Shown here: positions 24,637 through 39,600 of the stretch, in pieces | How positions within the stretch are numbered: the stretch's first letter is position 1 | Layout: each line of letters starts with the position of its first letter | DNA from: Cristatella mucedo | Lineage: Eukaryota; Bryozoa; Phylactolaemata; Cristatellidae | NCBI GenBank assembly: GCA_009760855.2 | Contig: WPIO01000014.1 | Coordinates: forward strand, 2,595,501-2,659,500 | Direction: 5' to 3' | Length of the DNA: 64,000 bases | The notes under the pieces: generated by a model | Databases searched by the model: none | What the model was told of the DNA's origin: nothing | The model's input: the letters and a program-made list of their open reading frames with translations, nothing else | Position numbers and translations under genes: made by a program

Positions 24637-27600
24637 GTACGTTCCTGAAGTGCAAATCTGTCACCAGAGTGCGGTGTATCAGTATGCGCCGTGCATTTAT
24701 AGCTCTGGCATAGCTCTGTTAGCTGTCACTGTCCAACATTAATTCGTGTCAGTAAATTATGTCAACATCAGAATTTCACAATTGATTTTCAAATACGACT
24801 ATCGAATATGCACAGGTATTCTAAAGTCATCCATTTGTGCTTGAGCTGCAAATGGCTAATGTGCCCCTTCATTTTAACCCGAAGCACATGTTTACTGTGC
24901 TGTCTTAAAATGATCAATATAGGCTGGCTTGCAAGTTGCAACTTGAACCTCTGATTCTGTTCGTGAATGCTGATCATGTCTAGTAGGTGGTGTACACTGG
25001 ACGCCAGTGAAGTGTCTTGTCAGTGTCTTGAATACATTTTGACTCTAGTACTGGCTATCTTAAATTCCACGGGGGAGATGATAGTGGACCGCACTCACAC
25101 CCCTGGACCTCGCCAAAAGGGGTATTCTACATTGTTTTCCACAATAACATCGTTCATTTCAGCCTTTCATCTCTGAGCCAGCAAGCACCTACGCAGAGCT
25201 TCGATAGCAGTAAACTACCGTCTAAGAATCATTTTACGCATAAGGAACCATTGTTGTTAGAGTGCAATTCAAGCACGAACATGTTTACGTTCGATGGTAG
25301 CCGAGGTCTTGTGTACACGCACCTAGGTAAAGCGCCTAGAGAGAGAGATTAAGTTCTCTGAGGGCGCATTATCAAGTGAATTATTATTATTATTATATTA
25401 TTACTAGGTCTGTGTGTGTGCACGCACATATTTACAGCCGTGTGTGAATATGTTTAAGTGTGCATATGTGTGCACATACCTGCATCCACGTGTGTATGTG
25501 CGAACACAATTGCATGCATTCTCACACCTACATTACACACAAACACACACACACACACACACACACACACACACACACACACACACACATACACACACAC
25601 ACGAACACGTGCAGACCTTTATCCAACCACTTGTTCAGGCAAGCATAGGATCAAAAGCACGTGCACATGCATGCATGAGCTGCATGGATGGACGAATACA
25701 AGCTTACTATTAAGTTTCCTGGGAAACTCGGACAGAGTCCTCTATTTTCATGACAAGTCTTTGTGAATGAAATCACTTCTTAGGTGATCGAGTGATCTTT
25801 GGAGAGAGTCCAAACATGCCAGGCTTGCCCATCGTCTACCGAACTCCGTCAGAGCGAGCAATTAATCCTGACAGATTGAATTTGGACAGGTAAGTCATAG
25901 CGAATATATAGCCGTTGTGAAGCATTTGTAGCTAATTTCTATTGCACTTATTTCTTTTGATGCATTAGTGCTTCACAAGGACTATGTACATGAGGTCCCC
26001 AGAAAACGTGCCACACCCAAATCAAGCGGAATACGGGTTTCCCACTTATCCTTAGCATTAACACTAATAAATGAGACATTAATTATATGAAAGTTGTTTG
26101 CAATGCGATAGATACTCATACTTACAAATCCCATAATTGTATAAATTCTCTTACTTCAGAGAAATCCTGAAATCGAAGATTACTCCTTTTCTATATGTAG
26201 CTTCATATTCTGCAATTTTAAAACTCTAAATTCATTTAAATATTTGTTCAGTGTATCATACAACATTAGAGAATTTCAACATAAAGGTATGTTTATGAAA
26301 AGATCTGACGATTTGATCGACAGTTGTCATGTTCCAAAGTGACCTTTTATTAGATGAACACATCAGCTCGACAGTCAACTCTGACTACTTTCAGCTACAT
26401 AACATTGTTAAAATTCGGGCTTGTTTAGATAAGGATACCCCGTCTAAAATGGTCCATGCATTCGTGACATCCCATCTCGACTTCTGCAACTCACTGCTTA
26501 CTGGCCTACCGGCATGTGTGATCAGGTGATTGCAGCTGGTACAAAACTCTGCAGCTAGGCTTGTCTGTCGTGAGCTTCGCAGTTGCCACATTACACCACT
26601 TCTCGCCGACCTGCAGTGGCTACCAGTCAAGCAACGGATTGACTTCAAGGTTTTGTCGCTCACTTTTAAGTCACTTCATTCTTTGGCTCCAGCCTCTCTC
26701 TCTCTCTCTCTCTCTCTCTCTCTCTCTCTCTCTCTCTCTCTCTCTCTCTCTCTCTCTCTCTCTCTCTCTCTCTCAGATCTACTCCCCCACCAGGCCAAGC
26801 ATCGTACCACCCGCTTTTCGGGATCCAACAGTTTACCAATACCTCGTACAAACATCAAATCCTTTGGAGACCGTGCATTTAGTTCGTATGCTCCCAAAGC
26901 CTGAAACTTTCTCCTGACTTGCGTCACAACATCCCCTGACTTGACCACATTTAAAAAGAACTTAAAAACACCTATTTTGGACAGCATTTAGTGGGTCCCT
27001 GTGATTCGTCCTTCATGTGCTTATGCATGCTGACACTGTGCATGCTGCCACTAACCACATTTGCATGCTGACCCTGTGCATGTCACCCCTAACCATGTTA
27101 TTCATGTTGTTTGTTTATCAAGCATGATATTACTCACCATTCCATTGCATTTCCCTTTGCAGCAAATGTAAAGCACCTAGAAAGAGATTGAGTTCTCCGA
27201 GAGCACTTTATAAAGTGCATTATTGTTATTATTATTACGATATTGAATTAAACATGTTCGTAATACGGGTGATAGATGTCATATCCTCAGCTTCAGAGGA
27301 TGGCATGATGTAACTTTTCCTCTGTATGACTACCAGACTCCTCGAGATATCTTAGCACTGTATATCTGTTAGGCAAATCCAGCTGACAGTTCAGCAGCAT
27401 GTATATGCATACTTTAACCACACACATGTATGGCATTGTGAATATCAAAGTGAATAAGGAGACACGATCGAGCACATCAAGGGTTTAATACCAATTCAGC
27501 AGCATATGAATATTGATAGAGTGCATTGGTGATGTGCAAAGGAAACCGGAGGTCCTTGCCGAGACTTGCCGATACCTAAAGTCTCTACTGACTTGCTTGA

Positions 27601-36600: not shown

Positions 36601-39600
36601 GATCTAATGGACAAATAATAGTGATAATAAAAATGATGAACGAGCTTGTTTACTGACATTGCTATCGTGATTTCAAGGAACTGGTCTACAAACCCCACTG
36701 TCTCCACAGCCACGCATAGCTGCAAGTGCTCAATGCGAAGACGTTTTAAATGTAGAATAAAGAAGATCGAAGGTGTGGACCAACTGGCGAGGCTCGACGT
36801 GTTGGATTTACACGGGAACGAGGTATGCCATCACCCGTTTGCATTCTGGACTGCTGGGTGGCAGCCCACCCACATTCATAGCTGACTTGCTCCCAGTGCT
36901 GCACAGAATGGAAGAAGGGAGTGCCGTCCTTAGTGCATAGGCTATCTGATTGTCTCATGCCCACTTGGTACCCACCGAGGAACAATCTTCATAGCAATTA
37001 ACATTAAGGTCTAAGTAGCTCACTGAAAGCGATTTTATTAGGCTGTTAGAGTGCTCGTCTCCTGTCAGTCGTCAAGTAAGTCAGTAGAGACCTTAGGTAT
37101 CGGCAAGTCTCGGCCAGTATCTCTGGCTTCCTTTGCACATCACCAACGCATTCTATCAATATTCATATGCTGCTGAATTGGTATTAAACTCTTGATGTGC
37201 TCAATCGTGTCTCCTTATTCACTTTGATATTCACGATGTCATACATGTGTGTGGTTAAAGTATGCATGTACATGCTGCTGAACTATCAGCTGGATTTGCC
37301 TAACAGATATACAGTGCAAAGATATTTCGAGGAGTCTGGTAGTCATACAGAGGAAAAGTTGCATCTCGTCATCCTCTGGAGCTGAGGACATGACATCTGT
37401 CACCCGTATTACGAAATGTTTAATTCAATACAATAATAATAACAATAATGCACTTGATAAAGCGCCCTCAGAGAACTCAATCTCTTTCTAGGTGCTTTAA
37501 ATTTGCTGCAAAGGGAAATGCAATATAATGGTGAGTAATATCATGCTTTATAAACAAACAACATGAATAACATGGTTAGGGGTGACATGCACAGGGTCAG
37601 CATGCAAATGTGGTTAGTGGCAGCATGCACAGTGTCAGCACGCATAAGCACATCAAGGACGAACCACATGGACCCACTAAATGCTGTCCAAAGTAGGTGT
37701 TTTTAAATTCTTTTTAAATGTGGTCAAGTCAGGGGATGTTGTGACGCAAGTCGGGAGGGAGTTCCAGGCTTTGGGAGCATACGAACTAAATGCACGGTCT
37801 CCAAAGGATTTGATGTTTGTACGAGGTATTGGTAAACTGTTGGATTCCGAAAAGCGGGTGGTACGATGCTTGGCCTGATGGGGGAGTAGATCTGATAGAT
37901 AGGATGGAGGCAAAAAGTAAAGTGACCTAAAAGTGAGCGACAAAACCTTGAAGTCAATCCGTTGCTCGACTGGGAGCCAGTGCAGGTCGGCGAGAAGTGG
38001 TGTAATGTGGCAACTGCAACGCTCACGACAGACAAGCCGAGCTGCAGGTTTTTGTACCAGCTGCAATCACCTGATCGCAAATGCCGGTAGGCCAGTAAGC
38101 AGTGAGTTGCAGAAGTCGAGACGGGATGGCACGAATGCACGGATCAACTTAGACGTGGTATCCTTATCTAAACAAGCCCGAATTTTAGCAATGTTATGTA
38201 GCTGAAAGTATGCAGATTTGACTGTGGAGCTGATGTGATCGTCTAACGAGAGATCACTTTGGAACATGACACCTAGATTTCGAGCTGATTCAACTGGAGA
38301 TATGCTGGCAGAGCCAATTTTGAGCGTCAGCTTTTCCAATTTCTGAATCAAACTGGGTTTTCCCATAAATAATAAGTTAGTTTTATCATCGTTTAGTTTA
38401 AGAAAATTTGCTGCCATCCATACGCGGATGTCATCAATACATGCAGCAAGTGAGTTGAGAGAATTTGAGGTGCTAGAAGGCTGAGAGGGATTAAAGCAAA
38501 GGTACAACTGAGTGTCATCCGCATAGAAGTGAAAGCCTAGATTGTGCTTGGCAATCACATCGGCAAGAGTGAGAGTATAAACCGTGAAAAGAACCGGACC
38601 TAGCACGGAGCCATGACGTACCCTATATTTCAGAGGTACCTCGGATGATCTTTGTCCATTCACGTCAATACTCTGGAGTCTCCCACTGAAATAGAACCTG
38701 AACCATTGCAGAGCAGTGCCAGTGATGCCAAGGCGAGATGAGAGGCACTCTAGAAAAACTTTGTGATCGATAGTATCAAAAGCTGCTGAAAGATCGAGCA
38801 AAACAAGCAGAGACACTCTACCCATGTCTGCATTCCTAAGTAGGTCGTTGTATACCCTAAGCAATGCTGATTCTGGGGAGTGATTAGCTCTAAAGCCAGA
38901 CTGGAACTTACTAGCAAGGTTTGAAGTTTCGATATATGAGTTCAACTGGTCCACCACGACCCTTTCCAGTGTCTTGGATAGGAATAGTAGAAGGGAGACT
39001 GGGCGGTAGTTGCGTACGTTCTCTTGGTCTAGTGTTGCTTTCTTGAGAAGTGGCCTGACTACAGCTTTTTTGAAAGGTGCTGGGACATGACCTGAGGCTA
39101 ATGACATATTCATGATGTTAGTTATGCTTGGAAGCTGCAGATTAATGCAACGTATGAGCAAGACAGTGAGAATAGGGCCCAGAGGACATGTTGTCTTCTT
39201 TGATTGGGATACGAACTTCAGGACTAGATCACTAGTGACCTGCTTAAATCTAGACATTGAGGTGCAGCCAGCAATTGGGGAACAGCATTCTAGGGGGAAT
39301 GTAGTCATGGCAGGGATGGACTCCTTGATTTTGTCTATCTTCTGCACAAAGAATCGAGAGAAGCGATCGGCCAGATCATCACAAGGATCATCAGGTAAGG
39401 AGCTAATCTGGGAGCAGTTGAGGAGATGGTTGATCGTCGACATCAGCATTTTTGGATTGTGCAATATCTGTCAGAAACAAAATTATTGAAATAATCCACA
39501 TTTAAAGGCGTTTGCATGCTCCTAGCCCATTATGCACAAGTCTCAGTAAATGTGTCTCATGCTGTTTTGTGGTTATTGATCTTTAGATAGAGCATATTGA

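Follow-up and report, generated by a model that had tools for sequence, protein, structure and literature searches.

Inverted repeats placed in the introns that flank an exon can favor back-splicing and exon skipping, a principle that underlay the first-pass annotation of the locus described here and that is published for nematode and primate genes (PMC8330042, PMC10901737). Specifically, inverted Alu pairs are described as promoting back-splicing when two copies of one retroelement lie in opposite orientations in the introns flanking the exons concerned, with rival pairs competing (PMC11263572). An AluY–AluSx1 pair around exon 6 of TBXT leads to skipping of this exon in apes, as was shown by deleting either arm. 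In that study, the nearer pair (1,448 bp) was ranked over a farther one (4,188 bp), and a non-Alu inverted sequence also gave skipping (PMC10901737). In the Caenorhabditis elegans genes zip-2, Y20F4.4, and arl-13, reverse complementary matches in the flanking introns promote a skip, and in zip-2, where the matches measure 7 and 13 nt, also a circle (PMC8330042).

In mammals, circular RNA loci associated with young transposable elements carry young, little-diverged repeat dimers in their flanking introns, and their circles are seen as by-products (PMC8516420). Editing in metazoans is described as chiefly targeting duplexes of young repeats, in a study that sought inverted partners inside a 4001-nt stretch (PMC9989829). 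For many abundant and conserved circular RNAs in humans, the inverted Alus are distal (PMC7819710), and thus repeats are not always what gives rise to them. As for LRRC49, the portion of PMC9780452 that concerns this gene lists it in a predicted network and does not name it as the host of a circle.

The arrangement reported here, in an LRRC49-like gene within a 64-kb window (the whole stretch of DNA analyzed), is of a known kind. As with inverted Alu pairs, two opposite copies of one retroelement occupy introns flanking exons and rival pairs are present; as in TBXT and the nematode genes, the complementary sequences surround the exons that would be skipped; and as at the mammalian loci, the repeats are young and little diverged. 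However, an Alu arm is about 0.3 kb long, whereas each arm here spans 1.3 kb, far more than the zip-2 matches, and consists of part of a LINE plus a non-LINE flank rather than of a mammalian repeat family. In contrast to TBXT, the arms are 9253 nt apart and enclose two exons whose loss would change the frame, and skipping is a prediction from the sequence.

Exon model and geometry of the inverted repeat

The gene was located by tblastn using a provisional human LRRC49 sequence as the query. Plus-strand matches were obtained at 35002–35208, 36748–36825, 39587–39730, 39922–39987, 40068–40217, 40891–40983, 46767–46922, and 47891–48067 (E 7e-12). The exons that define the locus are as follows.

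25784–25889 (+), LRRC49 exon 2; tblastn match at 25807–25890 (E 0.010, weak when taken alone), GTAAGT donor and fitting phase; 5′ limit set by an AG
35004–35207 (+), LRRC49 exon 3, 204 nt; tblastn E 5e-19, splice sites
36756–36822 (+), LRRC49 exon 4, 67 nt; tblastn E 8e-5, splice sites
39587–39730 (+), LRRC49 exon 5; tblastn E 2e-12, acceptor; 3′ end taken from the end of the tblastn match

Joining 25807–25889, 35004–35207, 36756–36822, and 39587–39730 produces one open frame with GT/AG at every junction, and therefore no coding exon is missing between exons 2 and 5. The exon model is sound. Its exon 3 acceptor (35004) and exon 4 donor (36822) coincide with those of the first-pass annotation, as does the combined length of the two exons (204 + 67 = 271 nt), and the model bears out the claim that only exons 3 and 4 lie between the arms. 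Intron 2 (9114 nt) holds the left arm and intron 4 (2764 nt) the right arm.

The exon numbers follow the count of the first-pass annotation because exon 1, like the transcription start, was not found in the 64-kb window. A CpG-rich stretch at about 16.5–19.5 kb is the likely start of LRRC49; the CpG observed/expected ratio is 0.70 overall and varies along the window. A second upstream exon, KTYSSNTGDHIEL at 24075–24113, was not accepted (tblastn E 0.12).

The LRRC49 protein is one of the subunits that make up a tubulin-modifying complex. The matches to this provisional query, together with an open frame whose splice phases agree, suggest an LRRC49-like identity for exons 2–5. When compared with PDB chains, the exon 3–4 peptide best matches PPP1R7 (E 4e-26), and no chain named LRRC49 occurs among the best 60 of its 116 matches; the name thus rests on the provisional human probe and the other exons.

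Several other features were observed in the window. A galactose-1-phosphate uridylyltransferase exon at 13270–13620 (−; Pfam PF01087, 5.8e-24) belongs to a gene divergent from LRRC49, with the CpG-rich stretch between them. Exons of a TB2/DP1/HVA22 (REEP-type) gene are present at 61896–62821 (−; Pfam PF03134), with scores of 1.8e-17 for 62561–62821 and 1.9e-5, under the cut-off, for 61896–62249. Arrays of 14-base units occupy 53104–53185 and 53607–53738, and their end units look mutually reverse-complementary by eye. The window yielded no Rfam match at gathering thresholds and no tRNA gene in a tRNA scan.

The arms and their parts are arranged as follows.

26325–27236 (+), LINE part of the left arm; BLAST and alignment
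26694–26774 (+), (CT)40.5 tract in the left arm, found by TRF; forms a 72-column alignment gap and is mostly absent from the right arm
27237–27709 (+), shared flank of the left arm, past the ATT-rich LINE tail; 92.8% over 469 columns to the right arm
36963–37433 (−), shared flank of the right arm, beginning 140 nt past the exon 4 donor; BLAST and alignment
37434–38271 (−), right-arm LINE-A stretch complementary to the left arm, in antisense orientation to LRRC49; BLAST and alignment
38272–39475 (−), remaining portion of the right-hand LINE, within intron 4; Pfam RVT_1 2.1e-26 and list of open reading frames; 5′ limit approximate

BLAST and global alignment agree that the left arm (26325–27709) is the reverse complement of the right arm (36963–38271), so the limits first proposed, 26324–27708 and 36964–38272, were correct to about one base. 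The alignment of the arms suggested at that time gives 1219 matches, 90 mismatches, and 76 gap columns. The (CT)40.5 tract, where 72 of the 76 gap columns fall, is the chief difference between the arms. BLAST reports two minus-strand segments, 26766–27709 against 37902–36963 (93.6% over 944 columns) and 26322–26702 against 38274–37894 (90.3% over 381 columns). This pair scores highest among the 209 found by comparing the window with itself (E 1e-10), and its 1427 bits compare with a maximum of 39.2 bits for inverted matches in 20 random first-order Markov windows. The left arm starts 435 nt past the exon 2 donor, and the right arm lies close behind exon 4.

The geometry of the arms is real. 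The left-arm (CT)n tract is the type of site where assemblies go wrong, and one arm might accordingly be a false copy introduced by an assembly error. We consider this barely credible: no sign of such an error was found, mismatches separate the arms at 90 of the 1309 bases aligned, the 72-column gap comes on top of these, and each arm runs on into a different exon neighborhood of LRRC49.

Composition and origin of the arms

Each arm comprises the 3′ part of one LINE family (LINE-A) followed by a 0.47-kb flank. This composition, proposed in the first-pass annotation, held up in BLAST comparisons, in a window-wide search with the flank, and on inspection of LINE 3′ ends. A search of the 64-kb window with the left-arm flank, at E values up to 1, recovered that flank and its counterpart in the right arm, and no third copy. 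An ATT-rich tail is present at all 11 LINE 3′ ends inspected, and the same flank follows it only in the left and right arms. We considered whether the flank might be the LINE family's own 3′ end and rejected this because other sequence occupies that place in 9 of the 11 copies. The right LINE copy contains an open frame at 38067–39470 (−) with a reverse transcriptase domain (RVT_1 2.1e-26). This copy is unlikely to be an active source: there is no room before exon 5 beyond the 467-aa frame, and Pfam detects RVT_1 only, whereas a full LINE element of this kind would carry an endonuclease.

In a tree of eight LINE copies, the left and right copies are sisters (support 0.903) on near-equal branches (0.022 and 0.025), and eight columns of the eight-copy alignment are private to them. 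Divergence is alike in the LINE part (53/827 mismatches) and in the flank (34/468; Fisher p 0.56). The left copy is a subset of the right because the right extends further into the LINE. As far as the 64-kb window shows, the copies resemble what a local inverted (segmental) duplication would leave: an apparently non-mobile flank common to both, the shorter copy contained in the longer, and no evident insertion marks.

Because the flank is common to both arms, we favor one local duplication over two ordinary LINE insertions. Specifically, a LINE fragment would have sat antisense in intron 4 of LRRC49, and its 3′ part, together with 0.47 kb of adjoining intron, would have been copied in inverted orientation into intron 2. 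The greater length of the right copy is what suggests this direction of copying. One result counts against such an origin: three segments of the arms diverge unevenly (33/366, or 9.0%; 20/461, or 4.3%; 34/468, or 7.3%; chi-square p 0.024), which a single duplication followed by neutral drift does not predict.

Another possibility is that one source LINE retrotransposed twice, independently and in opposite orientations, each time carrying the flank along by 3′ read-through (transduction). As expected from such events, the arms share their 3′ end base while their LINE parts differ in 5′ limit. LINE 3′ transduction is recognized by a tail past the flank and by target-site duplications. Here, neither an A-rich nor an ATT-rich tail is present at the outer end of the flank, the only ATT-rich tail being the one at the LINE–flank joint, and no target-site duplication is evident at the arms. 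The longest k-mers common to the two insertion sides are 5 bases on the left (chance 0.57) and 6 bases on the right; the latter, which does not abut the ends and has a chance probability of 0.07, could just conceivably be a target-site duplication of the right copy. LINEs of this type may lack clear target-site duplications, so their absence is not decisive. Both copies also reside in one gene, 9 kb apart, with no further copy of the flank in the window, and overall we regard two transduction events as rather unlikely.

Pairing strength and competing partners

The computed duplex of the two arms has 1246 predicted pairs, perfect runs of up to 91, and an energy of −2257 kcal/mol, making it the strongest of six distinct pairings computed. 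Each arm folded alone reaches −323 and −372 kcal/mol, and a local hairpin at 41888–42715 reaches −221 kcal/mol. The remaining pairings are listed below.

30474–30884 (+), intron 2 copy of LINE-A; pairs with the right arm less strongly than the left arm does, likewise bracketing exons 3–4; 81.4% over 419 columns, 353 pairs, −552 kcal/mol
27978–28565 (+), older LINE-A element within intron 2; pairing with the right arm is weak and likewise brackets exons 3–4; 66.9% over 599 columns, 427 pairs, −529 kcal/mol
49673–50329 (+), downstream copy of LINE-A, a rival for pairing with the right arm, brackets exons 5–10; 89.4% over 662 columns, 603 pairs, −1077 kcal/mol
34166–34444 with 41076–41354, inverted pair of LINE-B (a second LINE family), brackets exons 3–8; 83.5% over 279 columns, 249 pairs, −418 kcal/mol

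Whichever intron 2 copy the right arm pairs with, exons 3–4 are the ones enclosed. It is conceivable that the right arm instead pairs mainly with 49673–50329, or that the LINE-B pair, whose arms lie near the exon 3 acceptor and the exon 8 match, dominates; circles or skips would then involve exons 5–10 or 3–8. These pairings (603 pairs at −1077 kcal/mol and 249 pairs at −418 kcal/mol, respectively) are both weaker than that of the two arms. Moreover, transcription must run 11.6 kb beyond the right arm to reach position 49673, whereas the left arm is already present by then, and this order of synthesis should favor the arms. We therefore judge dominance by a competitor to be improbable.

At the sequence level, complementary sequence is present in both flanking introns, and none of introns 2, 3, and 4 contains a strong inverted pair of its own that would compete with it. 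Intron 2 has only one internal pair of 113 bp (74%), one of 67 bp (73%), and some self-matches (33067–33486 at 65%, and an AT run), and introns 3 and 4 contain none at E 1e-2. The imperfect self-palindrome at 33067–33486 (65%) resembles a small inverted-repeat element.

Predicted consequences for the RNA

Judging from the computed energy, the two arms in the pre-mRNA may join in an extended duplex, with exons 3 and 4 in the intervening loop. The likeliest outcome is a by-product, namely some A-to-I editing of the arms, which is expected in both of them if they pair. A minor circular RNA of exons 3–4 and a minor exon 2–5 skip are further predicted by-products. The skip changes the frame, as first supposed, and the exon 2–5 joint meets a stop one codon past the junction (the second codon after the last intact codon of exon 2). 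For this reason the predicted skip should make no useful protein; its product would stop at once and should be destroyed. Loss of exons 3 and 4 would in any event remove leucine-rich repeats and break the LRRC49 protein. The idea that the 271-nt circle carries a rolling open frame was rejected, as stops occur in all three frames and the longest ATG-started frame is 39 aa.

The length of the loop counts against an effect on editing or splicing, given that 9253 nt compares with 1,448 bp in TBXT and with the 4001-nt stretch of the editing study. It is quite possible, at somewhat under even odds, that the arms are a neutral repeat pair whose effect on splicing is too small to measure, the duplex being rendered ineffective by a loop of 9.25 kb, by helicases, and by rapid removal of intron 2. 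Inverted pairs abound in the gene body, with 52 rows at E 1e-3 across 19000–52000 (simple repeats included), and such pairs must therefore usually be tolerated. However, the arms far exceed the other pairs listed in both length and identity.

We assign a probability of roughly 0.55 to the explanation as a whole, in which inverted copying from intron 4 to intron 2 created arms whose duplex loops out exons 3–4 and yields by-products; a selected function is not needed. We find it very doubtful that the inverted duplication acts as a switch, whereby the duplex would give an exon 3–4 circle and the stopping exon 2–5 skip, lowering LRRC49 protein, with ADAR editing setting the balance. If a circle or skip is made, LRRC49 would represent a non-Alu case with arms and loop far longer than those of TBXT, and a useful test of the trade-off between arm length and distance. 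Otherwise, the arms are commonplace intronic retrotransposon debris.

Long (CT)n tracts were observed at three sites in or near LRRC49 (26694–26774, 35386–35454, and 50595–50777), one of them about 180 nt past the exon 3 donor. As an idea only, such tracts are possible candidate binding sites for a polypyrimidine-tract protein.
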